Assembly: GCF_019802345.1 (NCBI RefSeq)
Contig: NZ_JAINDZ010000030.1
Coordinates: forward strand, 1-53,189
From: Methylosinus sp. Sm6
GTDB lineage: Bacteria; Pseudomonadota; Alphaproteobacteria; Rhizobiales; Beijerinckiaceae
Reading direction: 5' to 3'
Length of the DNA: 53,189 nt
The notes under the pieces were generated by a model that saw nothing but the letters and a program-made list of their open reading frames with translations, had not been told where the DNA came from and ran no database searches. Positions 15,836-41,405 of this stretch are shown in pieces (position 1 is the first letter of the stretch; each line of letters begins with the position of its first letter). Position numbers and translations under genes: made by a program.

Positions 15836-16315
15836 ATGATGGACGATTCCTCTCTTCCTTCGGCTCACCCTGCGGGTGAGCAATCGCCGGTTGTGGTCGG
15901 CGAGGCCCCGGCGGGCGTCGATCTCGACAGCTTCTTCGGCCCGATCCGGGTCGAATGGGATCAGGAAGCGGCGATGACGCCGCTCGGGCAGCTGCCGTTC
16001 TTCATCGACTTCCTGAAAACGAGCGGACTGTTCGACGCCTTCGTCGCCGATTGTCCGCTGCGCTATGCCAGCCCCAATGCGCCCAAGAAGCGCGACGTTC
16101 TCGGCACGGCGATGCTCGCCATGCTCGCCGGGCACAAGCGCTACGCTCATATAGCGGCGCCGCGCTGCGACGCCGTGCTGCCGGAGCTGCTCGGCATGAA
16201 GAAGGTCGTCAGCGAAGATGCGGTGCGGCGCGCCTTCAAAGCGATCGACGAGAGCGAAGGCGCGGCATGGCTGCGCGGCCATTTGCTCTCGAACCCTTAT
16301 CCGCCGTTAACTTGA
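15836..16315 (+). pseudogene. Transposase N-terminal fragment (family uncertain)
   Basis: The product begins MMDDSSLPSAHPAGEQ and contains TPLGQLPFFIDFLKTSGLFD and RDVLGTAMLAMLAGHKRYAH, LGMKKVVSEDAVRRAF. These resemble the N-terminal part of large DDE transposases of the IS4/IS1380 kind. The conserved part ends at WLRGHLLS, where unrelated sequence begins, so about two thirds of the protein is missing. The break at about 16290 marks the left boundary of the exporter and prodiginine block. Confidence 0.6.
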
Positions 16316-16996
16316 CGGCACGCTCTGGGGCGTTATTGCGCCATCCTCGAGAGTGATGATCCGGTCCGCGATATCGAGAATCCGATAGTCGTGAGTTACG
16401 AGCAGGATCGTCGCGCCATAGTCCTTGGCGAGGCGTTTGAGAATATTGACCGCTTCGTGACCGCTTGCCTTGTCGAGAGAAGCGGTTGGCTCGTCGGCCA
16501 GCACGAGCTTTGGCCGCGAGACCAGGGCGCGCGCGATTGCGACACGCTGGCGCTGTCCTCCCGACAATTGTTTTGGCCGACGGTCGAGATGGTCGGCTAG
16601 ACCGACCTCGGTCAGCATTTCGCCGGCTCGCTGTCGTCGTTCGGCTTCCGAAAGCCGATCGTCGAGTTCGAGCGCCATGCAGACATTTTCCACGGCCGTC
16701 AGCGGCCAAAACAAATTGTGTTGCTGGAAAATGTAGCCGATTTGCCGCCGCACGCCCATACGAACGTTTTCGTCGCTGTTCACCAGCTCGCGGCCCAGCA
16801 CGACGGCGCTTCCCGTCACGGCGAGGCGCAGGCCGCCCAGGATCGTGAGCAAGGTCGTCTTGCCCGAACCCGAGGGGCCGGTGAGTATGACGATCTCCCC
16901 CCGATCGACCGAAAAATCGACATTGTTGAGCACTTGGCGGCGGAATTCGCCGGCGCCGTAAGCGAAGCTCACTCCTTTCACATCGACCAGCGCCAT
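16307..16996 (-). CDS. devA: DevA-type ABC exporter ATPase
   Basis: The 229-residue protein is a complete ABC ATPase: Walker A GPSGSGKTTLL, Q-loop IFQQHNLF, signature LSGGQRQRVAIARAL, Walker B LVLADEPTASLD, and H-loop LLVTHD. It is close to DevA/MacB-type ATPases. Its ATG overlaps the stop of the permease gene (TGATG), so the two are coupled. With the next two genes it forms a DevBCA-type exporter, a class known in cyanobacteria for heterocyst glycolipid export. It is the last gene on the prodiginine strand, so the cargo may be the pigment; this is inference. Confidence 0.9.
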   Translation of the reverse strand: MALVDVKGVSFAYGAGEFRRQVLNNVDFSVDRGEIVILTGPSGSGKTTLLTILGGLRLAVTGSAVVLGRELVNSDENVRMGVRRQIGYIFQQHNLFWPLTAVENVCMALELDDRLSEAERRQRAGEMLTEVGLADHLDRRPKQLSGGQRQRVAIARALVSRPKLVLADEPTASLDKASGHEAVNILKRLAKDYGATILLVTHDYRILDIADRIITLEDGAITPQSVPSS

Positions 16997-18165
16997 CAGA
17001 ACATATCCGCTGGATTTGCCGCTTTCAGGCGGCGAATGGCGAGCGCGCCGGCGAGCGAACACATCGTAAGAATGAATGCGAACACTGTCGCGATTTTGCC
17101 GAGGGGCATCGGAAAAGGAATGAATATTTCCTGTTCGGCGAGACGATAAAGCGCGACGGACAAGCCGAGACCGAGCGCAAATCCGAGAAGCGCGAGATAG
17201 ATTGCGGACGAGAGAACCACCAGTTGGAGATAGAACTGGGAGTATCCCATCGCTTTGAGCGTCGCGTATTGGCTCAAATTGTTGCTCACGTCCGTAAAGA
17301 GAATTTGGTAGACGATCACCATGCCGACGACAAGTCCCATTACGACGCCGAAACCAAAGATAAATCCCATCGGCGCAGAGTTCTCCCAGTAGCCTTTTTC
17401 GAATTCGACAAGCTCGTTGTAATCGAACACACGCATCTCCTGGCCCATCAACGCGAGCAAGTCCGCCTGCGCCTTGCGAACGTCGGATCCCGGATTGAGC
17501 AAGACGAACCCGAGATCGATTTTGTCGAAAGCGCGCTGCGGAAAGATGCGATGAAAATTCAAGTCGCTCGTGACGACGTTTCCATCGGCGGCGAATGTCG
17601 TTCCCATGCGGAACGTTCCGACGATCTTTATCCTGCGTCCGTTGACTTCCGTCACGTCGCGTCCTTTGGAAATTTGCTCGGACACCGGACCGAACTCGGG
17701 CCTCGAGGCAATGTCGAAGAGCGCGACGTCCTGGCGTTTGAGGTCGTCGGCGCGCGCGCAAATGTCCACGTCGTCGATCAGGTCGCCGTTGAGATCGTAA
17801 CCATAGACCATCAAGGTTCGCTGTATATGAGTGTCCATGTTCTTGAATTGTCCAAGCGACACGTACATGGGATAAACGGCGCGAACGTCCGGATGGCCGA
17901 GCGCGCGCATCAGCGCGCTGCGCTCGAATTGCACGGGCCGCCACAGCGCCTCCGTCTGCTTGTGCAGCACGAACAAATCGGCCCGCATCTTGATCGGCGC
18001 CGACACGGCGCTCGCGTAAAGCGAATCGAGAAAACCGAGCTGCATGAACACCAGCACGCTGGCGAACAGGACGCCGAGCGTCGCGGCGATGAGCTTCGGC
18101 TTATCGTATGTCAGTTGCCGCCAGGCTAGACGAGCGGCGAAGAAGAAAGTTGGAAATGGCGTCAT
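16996..18165 (-). CDS. devC: DevC-type ABC exporter permease
   Basis: The 389-residue protein has one membrane helix near the N-terminus (LIAATLGVLFASVLVFMQLG, about residues 25-45), a large periplasmic domain, and three C-terminal helices (including FGVVMGLVVGMVIVYQILF). This is the FtsX/MacB-like layout of DevC permeases. LRMARLxWRQL-like ARLAWRQL and the QLGFLDSLY segment fit the DevC family. The start overlaps the devB stop by four bases. It would sit in the inner membrane with DevA as ATPase and DevB as adaptor. Confidence 0.9.
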   Translation of the reverse strand: MTPFPTFFFAARLAWRQLTYDKPKLIAATLGVLFASVLVFMQLGFLDSLYASAVSAPIKMRADLFVLHKQTEALWRPVQFERSALMRALGHPDVRAVYPMYVSLGQFKNMDTHIQRTLMVYGYDLNGDLIDDVDICARADDLKRQDVALFDIASRPEFGPVSEQISKGRDVTEVNGRRIKIVGTFRMGTTFAADGNVVTSDLNFHRIFPQRAFDKIDLGFVLLNPGSDVRKAQADLLALMGQEMRVFDYNELVEFEKGYWENSAPMGFIFGFGVVMGLVVGMVIVYQILFTDVSNNLSQYATLKAMGYSQFYLQLVVLSSAIYLALLGFALGLGLSVALYRLAEQEIFIPFPMPLGKIATVFAFILTMCSLAGALAIRRLKAANPADMF

Positions 18166-19082
18166 GGCGCGATGTGGACCTGAACCTGCCTGTAAATCTG
18201 ATGCAGGAAATCTTTTCGCGCCGAGTCGGAGAGGGTCAGTCGAACTTCGACGATCCTGGCGTCGCGGTCCGCGAGGGGATCCGTGCTGTTCATGAGATTC
18301 TTTTCGACCGTGAAACCGAGCATCCGAACTTTCGCTTCGTAGGCCGCCTCGCTCGAAGGCAGCCTCACGACGGCCGCCTGACCCGCCTTGACTCGCGCAA
18401 TGTCGGCCTCGTACACCTCGGCAACGACTTCTAGCGACGACAAGTCGGCCATGTCCAGAATCCCCTTGTCGCCCACGCGTTCGCCCGCCCTCGCATGAAT
18501 CTTGAGAATCGTGCCGTCGATCGGCGCCGCCGTCTGCGCTTGCAATAGCTGGAGCTTCTTTAGGCGAAGATTCGCTTCCGACTGTTTGAGGCTCGCGCGC
18601 ATGGCTTCGAGGTCCGTCTTCGCTTTGCTGGAGCGCAGTTCCGCTTCGTCGAAAGCGAAGGCCGAGACCGTGCCCGAAAGGCGCAGCGAATTCTTGCGAT
18701 CGTAATCTCTCTGTGCCTTCTTGAATTCGGCTTCCGCCGCCACCAGACGCGCGGTCGAGACGGCGAATTCGGCCGCGGCAAGATCGATCTCCGTCCGGCG
18801 GCGCTCATAATCGCTAAAGACGGCGACAACGTCGCCTTTGGCCACGTCCTGCCCTTCACGAACCCGGATTTCCGAGATGACCGCTCCGCTCGCTCCCTGG
18901 TCGGGCGAGACGTGAATGACGCGCGACATCGGCTCGATGCGCCCAAGCGCGCCGATGCCCATAACCGTTTGCGGCGCGGCGGAATTTGGCGGCGATGTTT
19001 CCGCGGCGAGCGGCGCCAGGCGCGCTTGCAAGAGCGCGCCCGCCGCGATCATTGTCAGTCCGATATAATTTCGCGCTTCCAT
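18162..19082 (-). CDS. devB: DevB-type membrane fusion (HlyD-family) subunit of an ABC exporter
   Basis: The 306-residue protein begins with a membrane anchor or signal (IGLTMIAAGALLQARLAPLAA). It shows the DevB pattern: GIGALGRIEPMSRVIHVSPD, a lipoyl half-motif (ISEIRVREGQDVAKGDVVAVF), a coiled-coil hairpin (about residues 90-185), and the second half-motif (APIDGTILKIHARAGERV). It links the inner-membrane DevCA complex to an outer-membrane channel; no TolC-like gene is in the cluster. A perfect 20-bp interrupted palindrome lies 30 bp upstream, so devBCA may have its own regulated promoter. Confidence 0.9.
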   Translation of the reverse strand: MEARNYIGLTMIAAGALLQARLAPLAAETSPPNSAAPQTVMGIGALGRIEPMSRVIHVSPDQGASGAVISEIRVREGQDVAKGDVVAVFSDYERRRTEIDLAAAEFAVSTARLVAAEAEFKKAQRDYDRKNSLRLSGTVSAFAFDEAELRSSKAKTDLEAMRASLKQSEANLRLKKLQLLQAQTAAPIDGTILKIHARAGERVGDKGILDMADLSSLEVVAEVYEADIARVKAGQAAVVRLPSSEAAYEAKVRMLGFTVEKNLMNSTDPLADRDARIVEVRLTLSDSARKDFLHQIYRQVQVHIAP

Positions 19083-19111
19083 GGGATATGCCTGCGAATG
19101 CTTTTTGAAAC

Positions 19112-19240: not shown

Positions 19241-20017
19241 TTACGCGGAGGGCCGCTCTTTCTCGCCACAAGAGGCGCGCGCCGCCGAGTAGAGCCGCGG
19301 CACGAAGCGGGGCGCGCGATTGCAATATTCCTCCCACGCGGCGCCATATCGCTCCTTGGACATAGCCTCGCTCTTTGGGATTGCGTCGAAGAAATATTGT
19401 ACAGCGTTGGCGAGCGGCGCAATCAAACCCCAGGGCGAGGCGGAAAAAAGAGCGAAGGATACGTAAATGAGAAAATCGCCGAAATAATTAGGATGGCGCG
19501 ATAGTCCCCACAAGCCCGTGTCCAGAATCTTGCCCTGGCTGTCCGCATTCTGTTTGAAGCGCCACTTCTGGTAATCGCCGCCGATATGAAAGACTGAGCC
19601 GACGAGGTAAACGCCGATGGCTGCGGCGTCGAAGGCGTCGAACGGCCCGGCCCGATCGGCGGCCCACAGGAAGGGCAAGCAATAGAGCCAACCGAAGGTA
19701 TTCGTCAGAATGACCGGCAAAGCATAAAGCGTCGGTCGATCGATCTGGCCCTGGAGCTTGGCCGCGGCGGTCGCGCGATAGGCCGCTGTCAGCACCCAGT
19801 TCATATGGACGAGATAGGCAATTACGAAGACCAGTATCGTGATCTGACGCCAGAGTGCGCCCGTTCCATATGCGACGATGATTGCGGCGACCGGAAGCAG
19901 CGTGTTGAAGCCGATGATGAATGGCGCTCTCGGCTCCTGGGTGATTTTCGCGGCGATCACGCCGAGAATGGCCAGCGCCTCGATGACAACCAGAAGAACG
20001 ATATATTTTTCGACCAT
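19241..20017 (-). CDS. pigN: PigN-like integral membrane protein (DUF1295 / steroid reductase-like)
   Basis: The 258-residue protein has about six hydrophobic helices and the C-terminal signature SRHPNYFGDFLIYVSFALF of the DUF1295/ICMT-like fold. The start is the ATG at 20015-20017, with AAGGAG at good distance; the frame is open further upstream. In Serratia and Hahella clusters PigN/HapN occupies the end of the operon and is reported to assist the O-methylation step with PigF. Its position after pigA here supports the same role. Without the cluster it would only be called a DUF1295 protein. Confidence 0.8.
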   Translation of the reverse strand: MVEKYIVLLVVIEALAILGVIAAKITQEPRAPFIIGFNTLLPVAAIIVAYGTGALWRQITILVFVIAYLVHMNWVLTAAYRATAAAKLQGQIDRPTLYALPVILTNTFGWLYCLPFLWAADRAGPFDAFDAAAIGVYLVGSVFHIGGDYQKWRFKQNADSQGKILDTGLWGLSRHPNYFGDFLIYVSFALFSASPWGLIAPLANAVQYFFDAIPKSEAMSKERYGAAWEEYCNRAPRFVPRLYSAARASCGEKERPSA

Positions 20018-20089: not shown

Positions 20090-21238
20090 TCATCGCAATC
20101 CCATGTGGCGCGCAACGATCTCGCGTTGTATCTCCGAACTTCCGGAGAACACGCGCGAGGGCAGGCTATCGAGCAACAGGCGGTCGAGCCCGTTGTCGGC
20201 GATCGCCGCGGAGGCGCCGAACAGTTGAATGGCGTCGAGACCCGCCATTACGGCGCTTTCCGATATCCAGAGCTTGCTGAGCGCGCTCGCCTCCTCATGA
20301 GGCAAACCGACGTCGTGCAGCCAGCCGGTGCGGTAAAGCAGCAAACGGGCAGTCTCAAGACGAAGCTTCATGTCGACCAGCTTGTTGGACACGCTCTGAT
20401 TTCGGCCAATAGGCTTGCCGAACTGGCGCCGATCGCGCGCATATTCGACGCACCGCGTCAGAACTCGATCCATGGCGCCGACATATGCGGCGAACAGGCA
20501 GCCACGCTCCCATATCATGCTGTCGTTGAAAATCGCGGCGCCCGCCCCCTCGGCGCCGAGCAGATTGGCTGCCGGGACGCGGCACGCGTCGAAATAGACG
20601 CTGCCCCAGGGACTGGTGGGCAGTCCGCTCTTGCGAGCCTCGGGTCGCACCGTCAGGCCGGGCGCATCGCGCGGAACGACGAAGCAGCTTATTCCAAAAA
20701 AACCCTGTCGCGGGTTCGTCTTCGCATAGGCGACGAAAACGTCGGCGATCGGCGCGTTCGTGATGAAACATTTCAAGCCCGTCAGCACATAATCGTCGCC
20801 GTCGCGCTCTGCGGTTGCGCACATCGCGAATGCGTCCGAGCCCGATTCCGCTTCCGTCATCGCGTTTGCGGCGATAACGCGCCCGCTCGCCATGTCGCGC
20901 AGCCATTTCTCGCGAATTTGAGCGGAGCCGTGACGCCAAACCGGTACGACGCAGGCGAACATATGCGCGCACAGCGAAAACACGAGACCCAGGTCGGAGC
21001 ATTCGCGGCCCAGCGTCTCTATCGTCAGCATGGCGTCGAGCGCGCCGAGGCCGGGCCCGCCCCAGTCGGCGTCGACAGGTAGTCCGGCCAGTCCCATCTC
21101 GGCGGCGGCGTCCCACTTACTGCGGTCGAAACGCGCGTCGCGAATGCGTTCGGCCGCGCCCGCCGATAGGGCTTCAGCCGCGAAGCGGCCGATGTGATCG
21201 TTGCGGGCAATCTGTTCGTCGGTCAGTTGAAAATCCAT
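20090..21238 (-). CDS. pigA: PigA, L-prolyl-S-PCP dehydrogenase (acyl-CoA dehydrogenase fold)
   Basis: The 382-residue flavoprotein has acyl-CoA dehydrogenase hallmarks: ANAMTEAESGSDAF, LTGLKCFITNAPIADVFVAY, YARDRRQFGKPIGRNQSV and the C-terminal SSEIQREIVARHMGL. In prodigiosin biosynthesis PigA performs the four-electron oxidation of prolyl-PCP to pyrrolyl-2-carboxyl-PCP. Partners are PigI (loads proline) and PigG (carrier). In Serratia pigA is the first gene; here it lies between pigM and pigN. Plain fatty-acid acyl-CoA dehydrogenase is the alternative, but the context makes PigA far more likely. Confidence 0.9.
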   Translation of the reverse strand: MDFQLTDEQIARNDHIGRFAAEALSAGAAERIRDARFDRSKWDAAAEMGLAGLPVDADWGGPGLGALDAMLTIETLGRECSDLGLVFSLCAHMFACVVPVWRHGSAQIREKWLRDMASGRVIAANAMTEAESGSDAFAMCATAERDGDDYVLTGLKCFITNAPIADVFVAYAKTNPRQGFFGISCFVVPRDAPGLTVRPEARKSGLPTSPWGSVYFDACRVPAANLLGAEGAGAAIFNDSMIWERGCLFAAYVGAMDRVLTRCVEYARDRRQFGKPIGRNQSVSNKLVDMKLRLETARLLLYRTGWLHDVGLPHEEASALSKLWISESAVMAGLDAIQLFGASAAIADNGLDRLLLDSLPSRVFSGSSEIQREIVARHMGLR

Positions 21239-21280: not shown

Positions 21281-22369
21281 TCACTCCATGCGCAGAATCG
21301 CGTCGACCGATCGGCGCGGACTTATCGATGGATTGAGCAAAGCAAGGCCAAATCTCGCGACGAACACGGGACGACGGGTCGAGAGGCGGAGCAGCCGCTG
21401 TATCTCTCGGCGCGGCGCATCGTGCTGCAAAAGAACGCTTACCGGATGAAGAGCGAGGCCGGCGGCCTGCGCGTTCAGCCAGACTTCGGCCAGCCGGGCG
21501 CCGGCCTGGAGCAAATCCTGGCGGCGCGGGCGCTCCTCGGGCAGGCTGCAGCACACAAGACCAGGGCCGGCGGCGACGAGGCCCGCCAGGGCGTCGGCCA
21601 TGCGTGAGGAGCCGCCGAAGGGACGGAGAGCTTGCATGGCCAGCGGCGAGAGCGCAAAGCGAAGGAGGCGGCGCTTGAACGGCGTCATCGGCCCAAGCAG
21701 GCTGTCGACGAAAATGCCGTCCACCACGTCCTCGTCCCCCGGTTCGCCGAAGCGAAGATGACGATAGGTTTCGGACCAGGCTTTGAGGTGAGTGAAATCG
21801 AGAGCGGCGTAACGCGCGGTCAATTCAGCGACGCTCTTCAACGTTTTCGGGTCCGCTTCGGCGCGAATCTCCAGCGCGCTGCCGGTCAGCGTTTCCGGCC
21901 AGCGGCGGATGGACATCGCGGCGATCGCCTCCGCGGACGGCGGATCTGGAGCGAAGGGCGCGCGACATGTCCGGCGGCGGCGTACGAGATCGACGAAGGA
22001 TTCCCAGTCAACGCCGCCAACGACGCGGGCAGGGGCGCGCCGCACGGTTACGATCGCCATCGAAATTTCGCCCTTCGGCGACGGATCGCTCGCGTCGTCC
22101 ATGGCCCACTCGCAGGCTAAGCCGAGGCGCTGGAGCGCCGTCACGAGAAGGCCGAGGAACAGGCCGACGCTGAGAGCCATCTCTAAATCCAGGCTTTCGA
22201 GCGCGGTTAGACGTCGGCCCTGGTCGAGCGTGAGACGCAGCAAGCGCTCATTCTCGCAGGCGCCGGGAACGACGGCCACTCGCCAAGGCTGGCAGTTGTG
22301 CGACGACGGCGCCCATCGAGCCGCCTCGATGGCCTGTCGTAAGAGCAGATCGAAATCCGGCGCGCTCAT
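21281..22369 (-). CDS. pigM: PigM-like nitroreductase-fold oxidoreductase
   Basis: The 362-residue protein starts MSAPDFDLLLRQAIEAARWA and continues PSSHNCQPWRV, the FMN-binding start of nitroreductase-fold proteins. RRRTCRAPFAPDPPS and LLQAGARLAEVWLNAQAAGL are further family features. In prodigiosin clusters PigM oxidises the hydroxymethyl bipyrrole (HBM) to the aldehyde HBC. The ATG at 22367-22369 is chosen since it begins the conserved region 20 bp after the pigL stop. Confidence 0.85.
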   Translation of the reverse strand: MSAPDFDLLLRQAIEAARWAPSSHNCQPWRVAVVPGACENERLLRLTLDQGRRLTALESLDLEMALSVGLFLGLLVTALQRLGLACEWAMDDASDPSPKGEISMAIVTVRRAPARVVGGVDWESFVDLVRRRRTCRAPFAPDPPSAEAIAAMSIRRWPETLTGSALEIRAEADPKTLKSVAELTARYAALDFTHLKAWSETYRHLRFGEPGDEDVVDGIFVDSLLGPMTPFKRRLLRFALSPLAMQALRPFGGSSRMADALAGLVAAGPGLVCCSLPEERPRRQDLLQAGARLAEVWLNAQAAGLALHPVSVLLQHDAPRREIQRLLRLSTRRPVFVARFGLALLNPSISPRRSVDAILRME

Positions 22370-22389: not shown

Positions 22390-23097
22390 TCAGCGCAAGG
22401 CGCCGACGACGGCGACGGCGTAGCCGTCGATCAGCCGCCCATGCGCTTGCCAATTTGCGAAAATGGCGTCTTTTTTTCGTGGCGCGGCTCCTTGGGGCCA
22501 GCGCCACAGCAGCCGGCCATTATCGTCCCACCCCCGCCATTCTGGTCCCGGTAGACCATCGTGGATTCCGATCAACCGGGCCTTGCAGAACGCCTCCTTG
22601 AAAGCCCATCCCAGCGTGGGCAACTCCGGCTGCTCGGCCTCCGCGCGAGTTAGCCAGGCGCGCTCGGCGTCGCTGAGAAACACCGTCCGAAGAGATGCGC
22701 TGAACGGCCGCAGCCGTTCAATATCGACGCCCACCGGCGTCGCTCCGGCGACCGCCGCGGCGAGCCCATGCGAGTGGCTGATGCTCACGACGCCCTCGAT
22801 CGGGGAGACCGGAGGACCGCTGGCGCCGTCGCGGTTCGAGACCGCGATATGGGCGAGCGGCGGCGCCGTTTCGCCACTCGCGCGTAGTCGGCGGCGCAGG
22901 GCCAGCTTTGCGGCGAGACGGCCTGCCAGCCACTCGCGGCGGCGCTTCTCGAAATGCAGCGCGTTATAGGTTTCCGCTTCCTGCGGCGACAGCACGGCGC
23001 GGCGGCGCGTCTCGTCGGCCAAGCCTTTCGCCGTGACGTGAACGTCGACGAGGGTGACGGTCCAGCCGCCAAGCCGCACGTTACGAACCCATCGCAT
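22390..23097 (-). CDS. pigL: PigL, Sfp-type 4'-phosphopantetheinyl transferase
   Basis: The 235-residue protein has the Sfp-family signatures: ISHSHGLAAAVA, the magnesium-binding VGVDIERLRPF and WAFKEAFCKAR. It transfers phosphopantetheine to the carrier domains of PigG and PigH. The ATG at 23095-23097 is favoured because AGGA lies nine bases upstream; an ATG at 23106 is also possible. The start overlaps the end of pigK by 17 bp, so the two are translationally linked. Confidence 0.9.
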   Translation of the reverse strand: MRWVRNVRLGGWTVTLVDVHVTAKGLADETRRRAVLSPQEAETYNALHFEKRRREWLAGRLAAKLALRRRLRASGETAPPLAHIAVSNRDGASGPPVSPIEGVVSISHSHGLAAAVAGATPVGVDIERLRPFSASLRTVFLSDAERAWLTRAEAEQPELPTLGWAFKEAFCKARLIGIHDGLPGPEWRGWDDNGRLLWRWPQGAAPRKKDAIFANWQAHGRLIDGYAVAVVGALR

Positions 23098-23428
23098 CCG
23101 CGACATTCCTGGAATTCGCGCCGTAGCCAGCGCCAAGACGCGTCCCGATCACCTCCTCGGCGAGCTCGGCCATGGCGGAGAAGCGATCGACGAGTCGGCA
23201 GAATGCAGGGAGGGCCATGTCGCGTTCGAAGTCGGCCATGGACGTGACGGCGATCACTTCGAAATAGTGGAATGGCGCGGCGGGATCGAGGCTGACGCGC
23301 TGAACTGAAAATTGACGCACGCTGGGTAGGTCCGGGCAGGCGGCGTAGTCCTCCGTCGTCACCCACTCCTCGAACGCGGGCGCGCGCCCGACGTCGAGCA
23401 GCCGAATTTTATGTATGATGATTTCCAT
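23081..23428 (-). CDS. pigK: PigK / HapK / RedY-like small protein
   Basis: The 115-residue product begins MEIIIHKIRLLDVGRAPAFE and has LPSVRQFSVQRVSLDPAAPF with HYFEVIAVTSMADFERDM. This matches the RedY/HapK/PigK family as I recall it, a small dimeric ferredoxin-like fold found only in prodiginine clusters. Its biochemical role is not settled. An earlier ATG at 23464 overlaps the pigJ stop (ATGA) and would add 12 residues; the later start fits the family length of about 104-115 residues better. This gene is one of the most specific markers of a prodiginine pathway here. Confidence 0.85.
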   Translation of the reverse strand: MEIIIHKIRLLDVGRAPAFEEWVTTEDYAACPDLPSVRQFSVQRVSLDPAAPFHYFEVIAVTSMADFERDMALPAFCRLVDRFSAMAELAEEVIGTRLGAGYGANSRNVADAMGS

Positions 23429-30274: not shown

Positions 30275-31288
30275 TCAGGCTTTTTGCCCAATCAACAGTT
30301 TGCGTGGACCAGGGATCGTCTGGGCTCGAACGTTGACGAACCCGGCGTCACGGAAACGATCGAGATATTCCTCTGTCGTGGACTCGACGCCCCCGTCGGT
30401 GGACAGGAGCATGTTGATCGAAAGAAGCGATGTGAAGAGCGGCCCGCTCTCGTCGTCATTGAGCGGCGTTTCGCTTGCAACGAAGGTTCCGCTCGACGGC
30501 ATGACCGCCAATATGTTTTTGAGAATCTTCCTTTGAGTCTCGATTGCGTAGTCGTGCAGCATCCAGCCGAGGTGAATGAGATCGAAACCGCCGGGAAGCG
30601 CGCCTTCTATGACGTCGCCTTCGAAGACGGCGATGCGGTTTTCAAAGCCGCGCGCGTTTAGCTTTTCGCGCACGAAAGCCGCGGCCTGGGGAAGTTCGCA
30701 AACCGCGACTTCAAGCTCGGGATGGCTTCGAGCGAGTGACATCGGCAACGAGGCGCATCCGGAGCCGATATCGATGAGTCGCTTGTAGGCCGAAAAATCG
30801 AAGGATTCGATCACGCCGTCGACGAAGGGCTGCGCGAGGACGCCGAGAAATTCCTGAAAATCGGCCACGTCTCTTGGATTCTGGTAAAGAATGTCGAACC
30901 AGCTGCGATTGTCTCCAAACACCGCCGTGCGCCGATCCTCGTTTTGGCGAATCGCCTCCGCGCAATGGCCCCAGAGCGGGTAAAGAAAAACGTCACAGTG
31001 TCGCGCCATCCAGCCCATCCATTGCGGCGATGTGCTGACGAGGCAGCGTTTGGCGGCATCGGAGAGGCGATATTCGTCGTTTTCGCGAAAAATGAGCTTC
31101 ATGGCTTCGAGCGCGATCAACAGTCGCTTTCCGGAGGCAAGCGGCACGCCCGCCCTACGACAAACTACCTCGGCGCGCGCCGGCGGGTCGATCGCGTCGA
31201 ATATCCGCAACTCCAATGCGGCGGAGACAGCTTTCGATTGGAAGAAGCCTGTCAAAATGCCGGCGATTTCCTTTATTTCTGATTCCAA
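30275..31288 (-). CDS. pigF: PigF, SAM-dependent O-methyltransferase
   Basis: The 337-residue enzyme has a winged-helix dimerisation region (about 1-90) and a Rossmann methyltransferase fold with motif I in LIDIGSGCASLPMSLA and the DLIHLGWMLHDYAIETQRKI segment of plant-type small-molecule O-methyltransferases. In prodigiosin synthesis PigF methylates HBC to MBC. The start is TTG (31286-31288) with a GAGGAG box overlapping the pigE stop. The MEVSE-type start cannot be ATG, since no ATG precedes the conserved part. Confidence 0.9.
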   Translation of the reverse strand: MESEIKEIAGILTGFFQSKAVSAALELRIFDAIDPPARAEVVCRRAGVPLASGKRLLIALEAMKLIFRENDEYRLSDAAKRCLVSTSPQWMGWMARHCDVFLYPLWGHCAEAIRQNEDRRTAVFGDNRSWFDILYQNPRDVADFQEFLGVLAQPFVDGVIESFDFSAYKRLIDIGSGCASLPMSLARSHPELEVAVCELPQAAAFVREKLNARGFENRIAVFEGDVIEGALPGGFDLIHLGWMLHDYAIETQRKILKNILAVMPSSGTFVASETPLNDDESGPLFTSLLSINMLLSTDGGVESTTEEYLDRFRDAGFVNVRAQTIPGPRKLLIGQKA

Positions 31289-33838: not shown

Positions 33839-36321
33839 CTGCCGAATTCCTTCGTGAGGCCGCGAACTTCGCCGGTCGCTGCGTTCAGCCGGAACCGCGG
33901 CGCCGGCTGCCTAGCCAAAGCGCCGTCGCGCTGCCAACCTTTTGCGCTCGCCAGCGAAAGCCCGTCGCCTTCGTTGTTGTGCGACAGATTGACCGTGAAA
34001 AGATTCAGCCGGCCGCGTTCAAGTAAGGCGTATTTCAGCATTTTTGCGTCGAATGCGTCGAGGGTGCGAGAGACCACCTTCAGCCCGCAGATGTTTTCTT
34101 CCCATTCTTCGGCGGCAATGTTGACGAGCCGCATTTGCCGTGACGTCCGGTTGAAGAGAACGAGCTCCTGGTAAGTGTTAATTGCCGACAGGCCGCCGTT
34201 GAAGAAGGTGAAGATGGTGATCGTCTTGTCGCCCAATGGCGCCTGCGCCAGTATGTTTTCGGCCATGCTGGGCAGAACGTCGGGAACCATTGCATGCGCG
34301 CCGTCGCCGACGAATGCGATCAGATCGGTTGGGCAAGTGTGCGCCAATGACAGTGTCGCGAGCAAAGCGTCGCCCATGAGCGCGCGTCCGTACCAGCCCG
34401 AAAATCCGCGCCTCGTGCGCGGAACGTTGCGCACGGCCGAAATGCCGCAGCGGCCGACATCGTAGACGCCGGTGTAATCGTAGCCGTCTGCAACGATGAG
34501 GCGCTCGATCAGTCGGCTGAACTGGTGAAAGAAGTAGTTTGGACTCATCGGCGCCGCCGGCAATTTGCTGATGACGTCGGACGGCGTATCGCAGAGCGTC
34601 GACATCGCGGCGATTCTCCGCTCGCGCCGGGCAGGATCAACATCGAGACTACGATCCACCGCTTGCAGGAACGCGCGGCTGTCCATTATGAGCGAATGGT
34701 CGGTAAAGGGCGAAATATGAGCCTGGTTGTGCGTCACCTGCACGATGTCGAAACTTCTGCCCAGTTTTGCCTCCGTGAAGGGCGTTGCGATCTGGGAGAT
34801 TTTGCTCTTTACGAAGAAAAGGCATTGTTCGTTTGGCGGATTGATCCGCCCGTCGGTGTGCAGAAAGCGATAGACGCGTTCGCTGAAGGCGTAGACTCCC
34901 AATGTTCCCAGAAAGTTCGGGTTTCGCACGCCATTGCGGAATTTCGGAATCGATCCCGGATAAGCGAGACTGTCGGTCAGCGCGATGCCGGCGCGATCAG
35001 CGATGTCGAGGACGAGCTCCAACTCGTCGTCGTCCATTGGGCCGCATTGCCACAACACTTTGTCGGGACCGTTGTTGAGTATATCCATGACCGCCCCGAA
35101 CTCGGGCGGATCGCCCTCCGCCGCCGCAAACGGGCCTGTCATGTTGTGGGCTGGCGGCAAGCGCGCCTCGATCGGGCCGCTGACGTCCATCACCGCGCGC
35201 GTCGCGAGCACCACCACCGGACCCTCGCCGGCGTCGTAAAGCGTCGCCGCAGTTTGCAGATCCTCGGCGAGGCGGTCGGGATCGTCCATGTACACGCAAG
35301 GCAAGCGCCGCGCCTTGACGACTTCTCTGCTGTCCTCGTCGGGAGTTATCGTGGCCTGAAACGCGAACCAGGAATTTAAGCGCTGTTCGGCGCACACGAT
35401 GAATCCTTTTGCGCGCGCCTCGCGCAGATTCGCCAGCGTGCCCTTGAATTCGTCGATCATGCCGCTCGTCACGACGATCACAAACGGCTTGCTATAGAGC
35501 TGCCAGTTGGCCATGGCGCCGCAAGCCAGGCTATGCTCGTTTGGGCCGCGTAGGACCGCGGCGCCGACCTCTTTGCAGCAATTCTCGAGGGCGTTAATGA
35601 GGGTCGAGACCACCGAGCCCGTGTAATAGAACATTAGCCATTCGGATCCGGCGCGCTCTGAAAGAAAGGCGGCCAAATTCTCCGCCAGCGCGGATTTTGG
35701 CCGCCGCGCGGCGCCGGGCTTGACCCGCTGGTTCGCATAGCTCATCTCGAAGAAGTCCATCCACAGACACAAGAGTCTGGTCTGCAGAACGCCGCGATCC
35801 TGGGGCATGACGCATCTGATGTAGTTCATGGGGTGGTATTGTATGCGCGCGCGGCCGGGACGTTGGAATACGACAGTCGAAAAAGACGATTGAAACGCCG
35901 GAATAGAGGCGTCGCCTAGTTTCGCGTAAAAATCGGCCAGGGCGCGGTCGAAGTCGTCGATCGACATCGCGGCGAAGTCGGTATCGCTGAAATCGACGAA
36001 GGCCATGCCGACCTGAAAACCGCCTTCCGTCCGCTCCCGCAAAGCGATCAATTTGCCCGCCACACGATCCAAAGTCGACGACTGCACAACGAGCAGGGTC
36101 AGTCGATCCTTGCGGCTCGATAAGAAGCGGATCGCTTTCTCGCGCGCCTCCGAGTAGACGGGATCTTCGACGAGATCGTCCTGACCGCATGGCCATTCGG
36201 CGTCAACGAAGACGCGATGGAAGACGTCTGTCTTGATGTCGTTAATGACGTTCACGCCAGTCTGGAAAAACGACTGGCTTTTCGTAACGACGACGACGGC
36301 GATGGAGATCGAAGTTTCCAC
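33835..36321 (-). CDS. pigD: PigD, thiamine-diphosphate-dependent enzyme of the MAP branch
   Basis: The 828-residue protein has an N-terminal acetolactate-synthase-like region and a C-terminal thiamine diphosphate-binding domain with the GDG motif in AFVGDGAHAMVPDVL. PigD transfers an activated two-carbon unit from pyruvate to an enal or enoyl acceptor, giving 3-acetyloctanal in Serratia. The start is set at GTG 36319-36321 (VETSISIAVVV), because the longer reading from TTG 36396 would run through a GC hairpin and lacks a clear ribosome site. Start uncertain by up to 25 codons. Confidence 0.9.
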   Translation of the reverse strand: METSISIAVVVVTKSQSFFQTGVNVINDIKTDVFHRVFVDAEWPCGQDDLVEDPVYSEAREKAIRFLSSRKDRLTLLVVQSSTLDRVAGKLIALRERTEGGFQVGMAFVDFSDTDFAAMSIDDFDRALADFYAKLGDASIPAFQSSFSTVVFQRPGRARIQYHPMNYIRCVMPQDRGVLQTRLLCLWMDFFEMSYANQRVKPGAARRPKSALAENLAAFLSERAGSEWLMFYYTGSVVSTLINALENCCKEVGAAVLRGPNEHSLACGAMANWQLYSKPFVIVVTSGMIDEFKGTLANLREARAKGFIVCAEQRLNSWFAFQATITPDEDSREVVKARRLPCVYMDDPDRLAEDLQTAATLYDAGEGPVVVLATRAVMDVSGPIEARLPPAHNMTGPFAAAEGDPPEFGAVMDILNNGPDKVLWQCGPMDDDELELVLDIADRAGIALTDSLAYPGSIPKFRNGVRNPNFLGTLGVYAFSERVYRFLHTDGRINPPNEQCLFFVKSKISQIATPFTEAKLGRSFDIVQVTHNQAHISPFTDHSLIMDSRAFLQAVDRSLDVDPARRERRIAAMSTLCDTPSDVISKLPAAPMSPNYFFHQFSRLIERLIVADGYDYTGVYDVGRCGISAVRNVPRTRRGFSGWYGRALMGDALLATLSLAHTCPTDLIAFVGDGAHAMVPDVLPSMAENILAQAPLGDKTITIFTFFNGGLSAINTYQELVLFNRTSRQMRLVNIAAEEWEENICGLKVVSRTLDAFDAKMLKYALLERGRLNLFTVNLSHNNEGDGLSLASAKGWQRDGALARQPAPRFRLNAATGEVRGLTKEFGR

Positions 36322-36414: not shown

Positions 36415-39132
36415 TCAGGCGGCGGCTTGCCGCTCGGCGCGTTCTTCGATGCGAACGACGCCAGCGTCTCCGTCGAGATAAAGAAAGTCGCCAGTTCGAA
36501 TCTTCAGCGTCCCCGACCGCGTGTTAACGACTGCGGGGATGCCGAACTCCCTCGACACTATGGAGCTGTGGGACAACGGCGAACCGATGTCGGCCACAAC
36601 GCCGGCGGCCAGGACAAAAAGCGGAGTCCAAGAGGCGTCCGTGAATTTGGCCACGAGGATCTCACCCTGCTGAAATTCCTCGGCCTGACGCTGCAAATCG
36701 GTGATAACGCGGGCGCGCGCGACGACGACGCCGGGGCTTGCGGCGAGTCCCACAAGGGCGTCCCCGTCATCCGCCAGCCGCGCCGCTGCGGTTGACCGTT
36801 TTGGCTTATAGCCCCCGACGATGCTCATGGGCGGCTCGTCGGCGCGCAGGTTGATTAGATGCTCGCGCCGGTTTTTCTCAATGAGCTCGCGCGAGAAGGC
36901 TTGCGCCGCGGTCTTTTGGCCCGCGACGTAATCGCGCAGCTCGTTGAAATCGAGAAACGGAAGGTCGGATAGACGCACCATGCCCTCTTCGCTCAACCGT
37001 CGCACGATCTCCAGCGTAATTTTGCGATAGAACCAGGTTTCGGCGACGAAAACGGGCCGGACGCGCTCGCGCAGGTCGGCCATTTTCGCATAGCTGGAGA
37101 TCACGAAGCGCAGCTTCAGCCGCGCCTTCAGCGGAAGGGTCGAGAGCAAGCGCTCCGTATCTTCGCGCCGCTTCGCGTCGCTCTCGCGCATTTTGTCGTA
37201 AAGATCGAATTCGTTTAGCAGATACAGGCGGATGACTTTTAGCAGATAGAGAGGCTCGTCGTTCCAGCGCGCAATGCTCAAATCGAATTCCTGACGCCCG
37301 CGCGATCCGAACTGACGCAGAAACTCCGCGAACGGGCCATCCCAGAACGTCTTGCCGGAGGAGTTGATCTGCAATCGCTCGACCAGCTCGTCCGCCGAGG
37401 CGTCCAAGAAGAGATCGCGCAGCTCTTGGTGAGCCTTCACCGTGTTGGCGAGCGCGACGACGCCTTTGGTGACGTCGATTGTTCGCAGATTGTTGAGCGA
37501 CGCCTTGATCCGGTTGTGCAGGCCTTCGCCTCGCCCGCCGAGCCACGTCTCGCAAAGTTCCGCTAAAGCGTCGTAAAGCGCGAAGGATTGCAGAAAGAAC
37601 GGCATATAGGCCGAGCAGCTCGCCAAGAAGTTGCGGTCGATCAGTTCGAGTTCGGCGTTGAGCTCCTCAAGGCTCATTGTCGTGAGATCGAGCGCGAGAA
37701 ACCTGTCGATGCGCTCTTTGCCCAACGCTTCCATGCGCTGCGCGGTTTTTTCGGCGGTCGCGACGTTGATGATTTGCTGGCGTAGCCAGTATAAGGCGCT
37801 GCGCAGATACGCAAACCCCTTCACCGGCTCGCCGTAGGGATTGCGGTAGTTGGAGAGATCGACCTCGTCGGTGGCGTATCTCTTGGTGAATTTCATGTGA
37901 TCGCGGGTCGGCGGACACTGCGTCAGCATGTAGGCCGAGGCCGAAATGTTGAGATAGACGTATCCGCGGATGTAGCCCATGAAGTGCCGTGACGGCGACA
38001 TATTCAACAGCCCCATAGTCTTGACCGCCGGGCCGTGAATGTTGTGCTGATAGAACCGGCAGAATGACAGACCGAACGGCGTCATCAGCCCGGTGACAAT
38101 CTCTCCCGTGTCCATGCGCGAGAACATCGTATTGTCTCGCAGCGAGTTTTCCGCTTCCTCCGGGTCGGCAAAAACCGCATGGGCGGCGTGCGGGTCGCTC
38201 ACGGTGATGGGCCGCGCTTGCAAAATGGCGATCTTTCCGTCCTTGATCGCCCATTCGACGTCGAGTTCCTTGTCAGCGAAGGCCGGACCGCACGACCGCC
38301 TAATGGTCATCGCGTGTCGCGCGAGCTGCGCGGCCTGATCGTCCGTCAGCGTGGCCGCATCGGCGATCATGGCCGGCGTTTTTTCCAGCGCCACGCCGCC
38401 GTCTCGGTGGCATATCGTGCGCATCGGCTTGTGGCGGACCGTACTCGCGACGGTGAAGTCCGTGCGATCCACGAGATAGCTATCGGTGACGACCTGGCTC
38501 GACACAACTCCCTCGCCGACGCCCCATGCGGCCTCGATGACAATGCGGTTGGCGTCGCCGCCGATAGGATCAGTCGTGAAGAGGACGCCGGCGGCGTCGG
38601 CGTTCACCATCTGCTGAATGACGACGGCGATGGATTTTTCCGTGTCGCCGCTCTGCGCGACCGCCTCACGCCGACGGCCGTAAACCGCCGCATGGTCGGT
38701 CCATAATGACGCCCAACAGCGCTTTATGCAGTCGATGACGGCGCGCTCGCCTTCGACATTCAGGAATGTCTTGTATTGGCCGGCAAAAGAGCTTTCCGCC
38801 GAATCTTCGCTTACAGCCGACGAGCGCACGGCGACCCGCCCGCCTCCGAGCGTTGCATAGGCGGCGGCGATTTCGTGTTGCAGGTCCTGGGGAAACGTAG
38901 CCGCCTCCAAGGCGTCTCGCAGGCGCGCCGGATCGCTGGCGATCGCCTCCCCTGTAAGGCCGACGCGTTCGACGAAGTCGTGATAGGCTCCTGTCGTAAC
39001 GCAATAGGCCTTCGGCGTCGGCAGGCCAGCGCGCACGAGCGCGTTCAGCGACGCCGCTTTTCCTCCCAGCGTCAGGCGATCCCCCTCGACGGTTCCGTCG
39101 AGCGCTCGGACGTATTTCATCGTATCGGCCAT
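36415..39132 (-). CDS. pigC: PigC, terminal condensing enzyme (ATP-grasp / PEP-utilising)
   Basis: The 905-residue protein has the pyruvate-phosphate-dikinase-type ATP-binding domain (GGKAASLNALVRAGLPTPKA, RVAVRSSAVSEDSAESSFAG, DVEWAIKDGKIAILQARPIT), a pathway-specific middle (about 380-780), and a C-terminal phosphohistidine domain with GSPLSHSSIVSREFGIPAVV. PigC condenses MBC with MAP to prodigiosin, using ATP. The ATG at 39130-39132 starts the conserved part and has AAGAGAA upstream; the frame is open about 90 codons further up through pigB. Confidence 0.95.
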   Translation of the reverse strand: MADTMKYVRALDGTVEGDRLTLGGKAASLNALVRAGLPTPKAYCVTTGAYHDFVERVGLTGEAIASDPARLRDALEAATFPQDLQHEIAAAYATLGGGRVAVRSSAVSEDSAESSFAGQYKTFLNVEGERAVIDCIKRCWASLWTDHAAVYGRRREAVAQSGDTEKSIAVVIQQMVNADAAGVLFTTDPIGGDANRIVIEAAWGVGEGVVSSQVVTDSYLVDRTDFTVASTVRHKPMRTICHRDGGVALEKTPAMIADAATLTDDQAAQLARHAMTIRRSCGPAFADKELDVEWAIKDGKIAILQARPITVSDPHAAHAVFADPEEAENSLRDNTMFSRMDTGEIVTGLMTPFGLSFCRFYQHNIHGPAVKTMGLLNMSPSRHFMGYIRGYVYLNISASAYMLTQCPPTRDHMKFTKRYATDEVDLSNYRNPYGEPVKGFAYLRSALYWLRQQIINVATAEKTAQRMEALGKERIDRFLALDLTTMSLEELNAELELIDRNFLASCSAYMPFFLQSFALYDALAELCETWLGGRGEGLHNRIKASLNNLRTIDVTKGVVALANTVKAHQELRDLFLDASADELVERLQINSSGKTFWDGPFAEFLRQFGSRGRQEFDLSIARWNDEPLYLLKVIRLYLLNEFDLYDKMRESDAKRREDTERLLSTLPLKARLKLRFVISSYAKMADLRERVRPVFVAETWFYRKITLEIVRRLSEEGMVRLSDLPFLDFNELRDYVAGQKTAAQAFSRELIEKNRREHLINLRADEPPMSIVGGYKPKRSTAAARLADDGDALVGLAASPGVVVARARVITDLQRQAEEFQQGEILVAKFTDASWTPLFVLAAGVVADIGSPLSHSSIVSREFGIPAVVNTRSGTLKIRTGDFLYLDGDAGVVRIEERAERQAAA

Positions 39133-39179: not shown

Positions 39180-40829
39180 CTAGATCGCCGTGAATTCTTC
39201 CGCGCGCGGCGCGCTTGTTGCGTGCAGCGAGACCTTCAAATGTTCGGCGGCGTCGAGTCCCGCGCCGACGGCGGATTCGAAATTGCCGACTCCATAGGTG
39301 TCCTGATTGGCGAAAACGATACGACCCCAGGGCGCCGACGCTCTGCGGAAGACGTCGCTTTTCATTTGTCCCGGACGAGGCGATACGAGCCCTTTGGGCC
39401 AAAGCCACAGGCGAATGTCCTCGACCGCTTGTGGCGAAACGCCTGCGCAGGCCAATATGTCCGAGACCTCGGCTCGCGCCGTTTCTTGAAGGTCTCGGAA
39501 CGCCGCTTTGGCGAGCCGGCCCTGATTGTCGCGGCGAGATACAGGCTTAAGGAGGGTGAGCACGCCCCTTGGATGGCTTCGCGTCGGATCGAGCCAGTTC
39601 GCGGAGATGCAGCCGCCAATCCGGCACCAGCCCCAAGGGGCGACCCGGTTTTCATTTCCGCCGATGACATATGCGCCGAAGCGGTCGGCCCAGACCGGCT
39701 GCTTCAAAACGACGTTCGCGACGACATAGTCGCCGTACTCGATCTCGGCCATCGCGGCCTGCTGCGCGGAGGGAAGGTCGCAGATCGCGTCAAGCGCCGC
39801 GTGTTTCGACGCCGCCCACACGACCGCGCGCGTCTCGACCACATGCTGCTGTCCCTCGCGTTCAAAGGTCACGCGATAGCGGTCGGCGCCGCGGCTGAGC
39901 ACGGATGTGACTTTCGCCCCGTTGACGCAGCGAAAGCCGTCGCGCATTTCAAGACGCTCGCGCAACCGCTCCGACACGAAGCCGTTGCCGCCCGGAAATG
40001 CGACAAGCTCGCCATACAGGTAGCCAATAAGGAAGTGGAGCCCAACGTATCCCGATACATCGTCGAGCGTCAGGCTTTCGACCTGCAGCGTCGTGACGAT
40101 GGCGTCACGAATCAGATTGTCGAGGCTTTTAGGGGGACGCAGGTCTGGCGGCAGCGTGTCTTGAAGGCGAGCGTCGGACAGCAACTGCCCCAGAGTGACG
40201 CTGTCGAACTGCTCCATCTCGGCGCGGGTCCAGCCGTCGGCGGGATTCCACGGAATGGAGGGGTGGCGGCCCTGTCCGGGCGCCATGCGCGCCAGATAAG
40301 CGTTCAGATGCGCGAAGATCGGGTCGCCAAGCCGCTTTTCTGCGGCGACGTAGGCTTGGCCCGACAGCGCGGCCGCGACGAGCGATCCGGTCAGGCGGTA
40401 AACTTTGGGGTTCAGAAGAGATGCGGGATGGGAAAGAAAAGCGCGTGACACGACGCCGAGATTGCCGATCAATTCGCCGGTCTTGAAAAGAACCAGCAAA
40501 TCGTCGGCCGCCGAGCGCCACAAACCCCACAGCCCGAGGTCTCTCAGGAGTTCTGCGATTCTTCCGTCGGGCGCCGGCGATTGCAGGCAGGCGCCTGCAG
40601 TAGGAAACCGCAATTCGCCATGGCGCTCGAAGCGGGCGGCGCCGCCGACATTGCGACCCTGTTCGAGCAGAGTCACATCAAATCCTTCCATGCGCCACGC
40701 GGCCGTCAGTCCCGCCAATCCGCCGCCGACGACGATCACGTCCGCGAAATTTGGCGCATTGAACGGACGGCTATTTTCAAAATGTTCGAGTTCTTGTGAA
40801 GCCGGCCTGTCAAATTCTCGCGTAAGCAT
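39180..40829 (-). CDS. pigB: PigB, FAD-dependent oxidase, soluble part
   Basis: The 549-residue protein has the FAD-binding motif VIVVGGGLAGLTAAWRM (about residues 31-47), followed by VTLLEQGRNVGGAARF, and the end of an amine-oxidase/phytoene-desaturase-like fold (NQDTYGVGNFESAVGAGLDA). PigB oxidises the dihydro precursor H2MAP to MAP. As I recall, Serratia PigB is about 670 residues with transmembrane helices before the FAD domain; this one lacks them, while the gene just upstream encodes a four-helix protein. GGGAG precedes the ATG. Confidence 0.85.
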   Translation of the reverse strand: MLTREFDRPASQELEHFENSRPFNAPNFADVIVVGGGLAGLTAAWRMEGFDVTLLEQGRNVGGAARFERHGELRFPTAGACLQSPAPDGRIAELLRDLGLWGLWRSAADDLLVLFKTGELIGNLGVVSRAFLSHPASLLNPKVYRLTGSLVAAALSGQAYVAAEKRLGDPIFAHLNAYLARMAPGQGRHPSIPWNPADGWTRAEMEQFDSVTLGQLLSDARLQDTLPPDLRPPKSLDNLIRDAIVTTLQVESLTLDDVSGYVGLHFLIGYLYGELVAFPGGNGFVSERLRERLEMRDGFRCVNGAKVTSVLSRGADRYRVTFEREGQQHVVETRAVVWAASKHAALDAICDLPSAQQAAMAEIEYGDYVVANVVLKQPVWADRFGAYVIGGNENRVAPWGWCRIGGCISANWLDPTRSHPRGVLTLLKPVSRRDNQGRLAKAAFRDLQETARAEVSDILACAGVSPQAVEDIRLWLWPKGLVSPRPGQMKSDVFRRASAPWGRIVFANQDTYGVGNFESAVGAGLDAAEHLKVSLHATSAPRAEEFTAI

Positions 40830-40913
40830 CGCAATCTCCCAAGCTTCGAGGCGCGTGGCCTAGCTCGGCCGCGCCGCGGCCGCAAAATCGTGGGCGTTCA
40901 ATGCAGGCTTGGT

Positions 40914-41405
40914 CTATCGGTTCTGCGGCGTCGACGCCGGCGTGCGCTGTCGTATATCGTCGTCTCGCGTCACCTTCGGTCGCGTTGCAGGAGCGCGCCG
41001 CTTTTGCAACTTGTCGCGTATCAGCAAAATTGCGACGATCGCGAAAGGCAGATCGATAGCAACAATCTCCGGAGTCGTTCTTGCGAGTATGGCGATGAAA
41101 CAGGCGATCATCGCCAATTGACCGATCGCCGCCGCCATCACGAGGCGGTCAAAAAGATAGCTGACGCCAGAAGCGAACAGCGCCACTCCGACGACGGCGG
41201 TCATAGCGCCGCCATGGTCCGCAAGCCACCGGCTGATCGGCTCCAGGAGCGTTCCGGCATTGTTGATCGCCGCGGTGCGCAGTGTTTGCGGCACATCCTC
41301 TATGCTGGGGACGGTTTTCGCCAGTCCCGCCAGGACATAAAGCAGACCAAATATGAAACGTGCGTAGCGCATGAATTTCCACCAAATAATGTTTGCGTGC
41401 GCCAT
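40914..41405 (-). CDS. DoxX-like four-helix membrane protein, first gene of the prodiginine cluster
   Basis: The product (163 residues from ATG 41405, 152 from ATG 41372) has four predicted membrane helices: ARFIFGLLYVLAGLAK, AMTAVVGVALFASGVSYLF, LVMAAAIGQLAMIACFIAIL and IVAIDLPFAIVAILLI. A positively charged tail follows (RDKLQKRRAPATRPK). The pattern is DoxX-like. It ends 84 bp before pigB on the same strand. It may correspond to the membrane N-terminal part of PigB in other species; otherwise it is an accessory protein of unknown role. DoxX-like assignment is by helix pattern only. Confidence 0.7.
   Translation of the reverse strand: MAHANIIWWKFMRYARFIFGLLYVLAGLAKTVPSIEDVPQTLRTAAINNAGTLLEPISRWLADHGGAMTAVVGVALFASGVSYLFDRLVMAAAIGQLAMIACFIAILARTTPEIVAIDLPFAIVAILLIRDKLQKRRAPATRPKVTRDDDIRQRTPASTPQNR

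Follow-up and report, generated by a model that had tools for sequence, protein, structure and literature searches.

A predicted prodiginine operon, complete and probably plasmid-borne, with an adjoining DevBCA-type exporter in the methanotroph Methylosinus sp. Sm6

Does a methane-oxidizing bacterium carry the whole pathway to a red prodiginine, and by what descent? This question is raised by a contig (NZ_JAINDZ010000030.1) of Methylosinus sp. Sm6, which belongs to a methanotroph genus and whose genome contains an AMO/PMO-family gene. The window analysed here is this whole contig of 53,189 nucleotides, one of 162 contigs of a 5.13-Mb draft genome. Its minus strand carries, from 16307 to 41372, a run of 18 genes comprising the full set PigA to PigN and an ATP-binding cassette (ABC) exporter of the DevBCA type, in the order B1 B2 C D E F G H I J K L M A N, DevB, DevC, DevA. 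Judging from sequence comparison, we consider it highly probable (roughly 0.92) that this is a prodiginine operon of a Methylosinus methanotroph, probably plasmid-borne, and a member of an old alphaproteobacterial, often plasmid-sited lineage.

As outlined in Table 1, PigA, PigC, PigD and PigE exceed the equivalog cut-offs of their NCBIfam models. All genes of the branch leading to 4-methoxy-2,2'-bipyrrole-5-carbaldehyde (MBC), namely PigA, F, G, H, I, J, L and M, were found, as were PigB, PigD and PigE of the 2-methyl-3-alkylpyrrole (MAP) branch and the terminal ligase PigC. PigE matches the structure 4ppm over its full length (1136 bits); this entry was deposited as 'Aminotransferase' and is presumably Serratia PigE. 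PigK was confirmed as RedY/HapK-like by the Pfam HapK model and by 2jdj, its sole match in the PDB. With start codons set by comparison with Methylocystis iwaonis SS37A-Re, the frames match the Methylocystis copies across almost their full length, none is broken, and by their dN/dS ratios against M. iwaonis (0.11–0.30) all 18 genes are under purifying selection. As far as the available rows extend, Sm6 has the same motifs as Serratia, Hahella, Massilia and other relatives; this holds for the carrier serines, the alpha-oxoamine synthase (AOS), pyridoxal phosphate (PLP) and S-adenosylmethionine (SAM) motifs, the Cys-His-His set in the second ketosynthase half of PigJ, the histidine motif of PigC (SPLSHSS) and the GDG motif of PigD. 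The catalytic residues are those which we take to lie in these motifs. By all these measures the block is a real, complete and well-conserved prodiginine operon.

An original prediction, made from the letters of this DNA, had recognised all fourteen Pig functions in unbroken frames on this strand, with key active residues present in each enzyme it had checked, and the model matches and alignments bear it out, except that PigA does not stand first but after PigM and that PigB is two genes. Its extent, 16307–41405, agrees nearly to the base with the 25.1-kb block of homology to M. iwaonis (16306–41398), although the last three genes therein (16307–19082) are DevB-DevC-DevA and not Pig genes. Furthermore, the relatives of PigC, PigH, PigJ and PigK, which it had regarded as decisive, sit in prodiginine clusters.

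Table 1 Features of the window (scores in bits or E-values; FAD, flavin adenine dinucleotide; ACP, acyl carrier protein)
Feature	Position	Strand	Evidence
PigB N-terminal part, own gene (DUF6041)	40914..41372	-	Pfam DUF6041 1.6e-37; NCBIfam PigB model (659 residues) positions 6-142; start via M. iwaonis alignment
PigB FAD oxidoreductase part	39180..40829	-	NCBIfam PigB positions 133-658, 541 bits < 850; FAD glycine motif
PigC, terminal MAP + MBC condensing enzyme	36415..39132	-	NCBIfam PigC 1457 > 1300; RedH 950 < 1350
PigD, thiamine-diphosphate enzyme, MAP branch	33835..36321	-	NCBIfam PigD 1350 > 950; GDG and FNGG motifs
PigE, reductase-like + aminotransferase	31301..33838	-	NCBIfam PigE 1367 > 850; PLP lysine motif
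PigF O-methyltransferase	30275..31288	-	49-60% identity to same-position PigF outside Methylocystis; SAM motif DIGSG
PigG prolyl carrier protein	30001..30252	-	Best PDB matches PigG, putative peptidyl carrier protein; Ser of DS motif
PigH, ACP-ACP-alpha-oxoamine synthase	27722..29965	-	Pfam first ACP 4.1e-9; aminotransferase-fold domain 1.3e-49; second ACP via alignment
PigI prolyl-AMP ligase	26086..27711	-	Best PDB match 7thn_B, L-proline--[L-prolyl-carrier protein] ligase, 6.1e-109
PigJ, double ketosynthase	23461..26082	-	NCBIfam PigJ best match, 381 bits < 900; two Ketoacyl-synt_C places; aligned motifs
PigK (RedY/HapK-like)	23081..23428	-	Pfam HapK 1.3e-39; PDB 2jdj 'RedY-like protein' 1.4e-33
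PigL phosphopantetheinyl transferase	22390..23106	-	Pfam ACPS 9.5e-14
PigM nitroreductase-family oxidase	21281..22369	-	Pfam Nitroreductase 4.3e-14
PigA L-prolyl-PCP dehydrogenase	20090..21238	-	NCBIfam PigA 645 > 500
PigN (DUF1295)	19241..20017	-	Pfam DUF1295 3.6e-27
DevB-family membrane fusion protein of exporter	18162..19082	-	NCBIfam DevB 178 bits > 129
DevC permease of exporter	16996..18165	-	NCBIfam DevC 374 bits > 290
DevA ATPase of exporter	16307..16996	-	NCBIfam DevA 313 bits > 296
Block common to M. iwaonis plasmids, ~90% identity	16306..41398		blastn edges, sharp at both ends; megablast 99% cover, 89.7%
repA-repB-repC plasmid replication/partition genes	9494..13225	+	Pfam; 91% DNA identity to Methylosinus trichosporium pOB3b1
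Outer-membrane efflux gene remnant, upstream of operon	41525..41666		84% to pOB3b1 across 142 bases

Three of the enzymes depart from a simple architecture. PigB consists of a 152-residue DUF6041 protein, which reaches 115 bits with the NCBIfam PigB model, and a 549-residue FAD oxidoreductase, as in several relatives. A frame break was considered and rejected: the split is also annotated in M. iwaonis and Thioclava, and separate frames are likewise found in Pseudovibrio, Notoacmeibacter, Hahella and Zooshikella. At the Massilia and Rugamonas loci (L018–L021) the PigB oxidoreductase and PigC share a single open frame of 1461 residues, possibly a natural fusion, and no DUF6041 match was obtained there at 1e-5. 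For PigJ, the predicted inactive first half is borne out by the alignment, with Asp where the Cys would be and Cys/His/His kept in the second half; as read from the alignment, this position holds Asp in 10 and Glu in 3 of 13 rows, and an inactive first half would therefore be a family trait. PigH had been predicted as an ACP-ACP-AOS protein. Both carrier domains, each with its serine, are indeed recognisable in Sm6 by alignment, while the Pfam PP-binding model detects the first alone. Both serines occur in 8 of 15 aligned rows (Sm6 included), the second is alanine in three (all Methylocystis), and four rows (Thioclava, Notoacmeibacter, Pseudovibrio and a Cellvibrionales metagenome-assembled genome, MAG) possess a single carrier domain, so that the tandem carrier looks dispensable. 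The linker from the second carrier domain to the AOS domain holds an extra segment of ~47 residues (29087–29227 in Sm6); it is mutually similar in Methylosinus, Methylocystis, Hahella and Thiosymbion and is not present in the Serratia, Massilia and Thioclava-group rows.

With respect to the replicon, the repABC neighbour and the insertion sequence (IS) debris named in the original prediction are both real. The tandem repA-repB-repC genes are close to a known Methylosinus plasmid (Table 1), and the cluster is probably plasmid-borne. Upstream of the operon lie IS66 scraps, an IS630 element and a remnant whose counterpart on pOB3b1 is annotated as an efflux transporter outer membrane subunit. The IS630 transposase (42030–43305) occupies two overlapping frames and is 95% identical to a plasmid copy of M. 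trichosporium OB3b. At 2758–4848, adjoining an IS66 gene, a radical SAM protein exceeds the cut-off of rSAM_ocin_1, a model for C-methyltransferases in the maturation of ribosomally synthesized and post-translationally modified peptides. Carriage of the cluster is patchy: PigD (NF053552) passed its cut-off in 3 of the 397 family genomes sampled; counted by genus, the carriers were 1 of 10 for Methylosinus and 2 of 39 for Methylocystis. Of 398 genomes drawn from the phylum only Sm6 itself had PigC at E 1e-60. One further family genome showed a weak PigD match (1.3e-4, below the cut-off), and the stretch read around it contained no Pig gene.

Several observations weigh against a functional, plasmid-borne operon of old alphaproteobacterial descent. 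Both pieces of PigB as well as PigJ remain under the NCBIfam cut-offs, the prodigiosin models still being their best matches. The contig is a draft sequence and the plasmid is not closed, and the plasmid relatives described below partly reflect the choice of a plasmid collection for the search. In the protein trees (see below) the support of the alphaproteobacterial group is 93, unstarred, for PigI and 89/87, unstarred, for PigA after three rows had been added, the first PigA tree having left the group unresolved; several enzymes, moreover, show higher plain identity to Massilia than to Thioclava. The consulted parts of PMC12727199 and PMC12566213, which cite M. iwaonis, mention no red pigment of this species and do not contain the word 'pigment'; colonies are described there as white to pale pink, and M. 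rosea as pink-red. Finally, the stretch homologous to M. iwaonis begins at the devA stop codon (16306) and, with the PigH linker as sole gap, ends 26 bases short of the first start codon (41398), where plasmid debris takes over, and a promoter scan of the region gave 0 sites against 0.4 expected by chance.

With plasmid debris in place of shared sequence so near the start, the operon may have lost its native promoter. An operon with intact enzymes, silenced by an upstream rearrangement which took the promoter and left the strain colourless, is a possible but less likely reading: besides the break in homology and the empty scan, the efflux-gene remnant, the IS66 scraps and the IS630 element upstream speak for it. 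By eye, however, a TTGACA-17-TATTAC pair can be seen at 41532–41504, which lacks the last T and thereby falls outside the stricter rule of the scan. The low dN/dS of all 18 genes implies that silencing would be recent, and the break may equally have happened in Methylocystis. Repeats sought at the block edges were uninformative, as was a terminator scan; native expression is uncertain.

If expressed, the pathway would proceed by analogy to the Serratia scheme given in PMC6667630. PigI, PigG and PigA would convert proline to pyrrolyl-PCP (peptidyl carrier protein), to which PigJ and PigH would add malonate and serine to yield a bipyrrole, and PigM, PigF and PigN would convert the latter into MBC. 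In the second branch PigD, PigE and the split PigB would form the 2-methyl-3-alkylpyrrole from pyruvate and a 2-enal, the FAD oxidoreductase part of PigB presumably carrying out the oxidation of H2MAP to MAP. PigC would join both halves at the expense of ATP to a red tripyrrole, PigL would prime the carrier proteins, and DevBCA would probably carry the product out of the cell. The set of enzymes is seen in the sequence itself; the length of the side chain (pentyl or heptyl), the substrate of the exporter and expression in the host are inferred. A product other than prodigiosin, whether tambjamine-like, undecylprodiginine-like or a long-chain analogue, appears improbable. The chain length is unreadable from the sequence, and heptylprodigiosin was reported as a major component from Pseudovibrio denitrificans (2007), as cited in PMC7484904. 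Tambjamine (tam) clusters, which have the MBC half in common with Sm6, lack counterparts of pigB and pigD according to the table in PMC6667630, whereas both are present in Sm6; PigC passes the model of prodigiosin-type ligases but not that of RedH, the mark of the undecylprodiginine red clusters. The presence of PigB, PigD and PigE together with a PigC that is no RedH therefore points to a prodigiosin-type MAP branch, leaving the alkyl chain alone open.

The cluster was then placed among its relatives. A scan built on a PigD alignment (one genome per species, 84,980 species, two peptide patterns without which relatives are missed) gave 27 loci, distributed over Serratia, Prodigiosinella, Vibrio, Pseudoalteromonas, Hahella, Zooshikella, Massilia, Rugamonas, Thiosymbion, Microbulbifer, MAGs of Cellvibrionales and Leptospirales and, among the Alphaproteobacteria, Methylocystis, Notoacmeibacter and Pseudovibrio. 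PigD was furthermore found on six plasmid records, two of M. iwaonis, three of Thioclava and one of Pseudoalteromonas xiamenensis. The Notoacmeibacter cluster spans the ends of a 214,548-base contig which overlap by 127 bases, so that this contig is probably circular. A phage origin was rejected, for PigD alone, as phage records gave no match. The closest relatives are the closed plasmids of M. iwaonis, pSS37A-Re-1 and that of strain SD4, with all 18 genes in identical order, annotated there as generic enzymes (81–95% protein identity, 89.7% DNA identity); their flanks and upstream region are unrelated to Sm6, and their second PigH carrier has alanine in place of the serine of Sm6.

In the PigD tree (32 rows) the seven alphaproteobacterial rows form one group with support 100/100, and the quick trees of PigC, PigE, PigJ, the B2 part of PigB and the AOS part of PigH show the same group, starred. 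The Pig trees are unrooted; the quick trees (C, E, J, B2, H, I) and the first PigA tree were each built from a selection of no more than 20 rows out of up to 32, and the quick trees carry SH-aLRT values only, which are less trusted for long rows. The PigH tree used the last 420 residues, without P. xiamenensis; a Microbulbifer look-alike (24%) was left out for PigI; PigA of Notoacmeibacter, Pseudovibrio and the Cellvibrionales MAG entered with the second PigA tree. Gene order agrees with this grouping: of the alphaproteobacterial clusters in which PigA could be placed, all 6 (Sm6, two M. iwaonis, Thioclava, Notoacmeibacter, Pseudovibrio) have it after PigM, and of the gamma- and betaproteobacterial clusters in which PigA and PigB could both be placed, all 21 have PigA ahead of PigB; the stretches examined at two Vibrio loci yielded no PigA. 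The position of PigN is shared by Methylocystis, Thioclava, Notoacmeibacter and Pseudovibrio. At fourfold sites Sm6 and M. iwaonis are 0.793 identical in the cluster (3431 sites, 11 of 18 genes pooled), compared with 0.761 for rpoB (664 sites) and 0.731 for gyrB (391 sites). The methanotroph copies would therefore have separated at roughly the age of the genera or a little afterwards, through vertical inheritance and repeated loss or through an ancient plasmid exchange. The higher identities to Massilia would be explained, according to the trees, by faster change in the Thioclava group. Given the alphaproteobacterial group in eight protein trees (two of them weak) and a fourfold identity similar to that of housekeeping genes, the cluster appears to represent a lineage long established in alphaproteobacteria and frequently carried on plasmids, not a recent arrival from gamma- or betaproteobacteria. 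Such a recent acquisition is very unlikely, since the patchy carriage and the nearness of Massilia and Hahella in plain identity (e.g. PigD 57–59% versus 48% for Thioclava) are outweighed by the trees, the position of PigA and the fourfold identities.

Horizontal transfer, as proposed in the original prediction, consequently stands only in the form of older plasmid movement among alphaproteobacteria, which is likely; the PigC and PigJ phylogenies it had suggested as a check speak against a recent gamma- or betaproteobacterial donor. Its restriction of known producers to gammaproteobacteria, betaproteobacteria and actinomycetes was mistaken as well: Pseudovibrio, a genus with the reported producer named above, falls inside the alphaproteobacterial group, a propylprodigiosin-like red pigment is described for Brevundimonas in part of PMC10329970, and prodigiosin was thought likely for three Parvibaculaceae in a passage of PMC10915500. 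That the host is a methanotroph had escaped the original prediction.

The exporter has a history of its own. DevBCA follows PigN in Sm6, both M. iwaonis plasmids and Thioclava. Among 16 searched genomes with PigD relatives, a DevC relative was found at 1e-10 in Methylocystis Sn-Cys and Pseudovibrio alone, and that of Pseudovibrio sits on a different contig from its cluster. By score, Sm6 DevC is closer to Pseudoroseomonas and cyanobacterial DevC than to that of Thioclava, and Thioclava DevC is closer to cyanobacterial DevC than to that of Methylocystis. In a DevC tree of 15 rows, ten of them chosen from the plasmid matches listed, Sm6 groups with Pseudoroseomonas (99/97). A single inherited exporter was rejected, with a P value of the approximately unbiased test (p-AU) of 0.029 for a joint clade of Methylocystaceae and Thioclava, which is only moderate evidence as the groups were named after the scores had been seen; a clade also taking in Pseudovibrio was rejected with p-AU 7e-118. 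DevBCA thus seems to have been recruited independently in Methylocystaceae and Thioclava, and its repeated arrival at one and the same site suggests that it may serve in export or tolerance of the product. The fuller picture can be advanced only tentatively: type II methanotrophs that secrete a red prodiginine made from methane carbon, with a cluster from an alphaproteobacterial plasmid lineage which gained DevBCA twice, independently, downstream of pigN as a dedicated exporter and in which the tandem PigH carriers are decaying to one working domain.

For comparison, the Serratia/Prodigiosinella pig clusters contain all enzyme types PigA to PigK in the stretches compared (32–59% identity of the Sm6 proteins to S. 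marcescens), but PigA comes first, PigB is one fused frame, and the genomes of S. marcescens and Prodigiosinella have no DevC relative at 1e-10. The Hahella hap cluster resembles Sm6 in its split PigB (154- and 567-residue frames), the extra PigH linker segment and 41–64% identity, and differs in PigA lying before PigB and a genome without a DevC relative at 1e-10. The Thioclava cluster, on a closed plasmid, has the gene order of Sm6, down to the placement of PigA behind PigM and of a DevBCA-type exporter as the last genes, but a single PigH carrier domain and a DevC of other descent. Unlike that of Sm6, it is bracketed by acyl-homoserine lactone (AHL) synthase and autoinducer-binding genes (locus L011, 3612–4223 and 28317–29012), which suggests quorum control in Thioclava; a LuxI search gave no match in the Sm6 genome, nor in any control genome. 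Two loci carry less of the pathway. Microbulbifer halophilus (L041, 10001–15018) has homologues of PigD (54%) and PigE (63%) and, within 22 kb, no matches to PigB, C, F, G or H at 1e-5, perhaps an alkylpyrroline or alkylpyrrole pathway without the bipyrrole half. The Leptospirales (spirochaete) MAG (L038, 10001–12412) encodes a PigD-like protein of 42% identity with no other Pig homologue at 1e-5 within 14.9 kb.

The openly licensed literature gave no report of a methanotroph carrying a prodigiosin cluster, although reports may exist elsewhere, and nothing joining prodiginine with Methylocystis or prodigiosin with Thioclava; the main text of PMC11964084, a survey of methanotroph gene clusters, contains no word starting with 'prodig'. 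Relative to the literature searched, the pathway is known, and the methanotroph host and the added exporter are the fresh parts.

If the proposal is true, methane oxidizers would join the prodigiosin producers, which would bear on competition in their habitats and on methane as a feedstock for the pigment. Comparison within the alphaproteobacterial set reveals where the pathway tolerates change: PigB can be split, PigA can be moved and a PigH carrier domain can be lost. DevBCA provides a concrete candidate for a prodiginine exporter. The presence of the same block on closed plasmids of M. iwaonis SS37A-Re and SD4, both named strains, makes the idea testable there.

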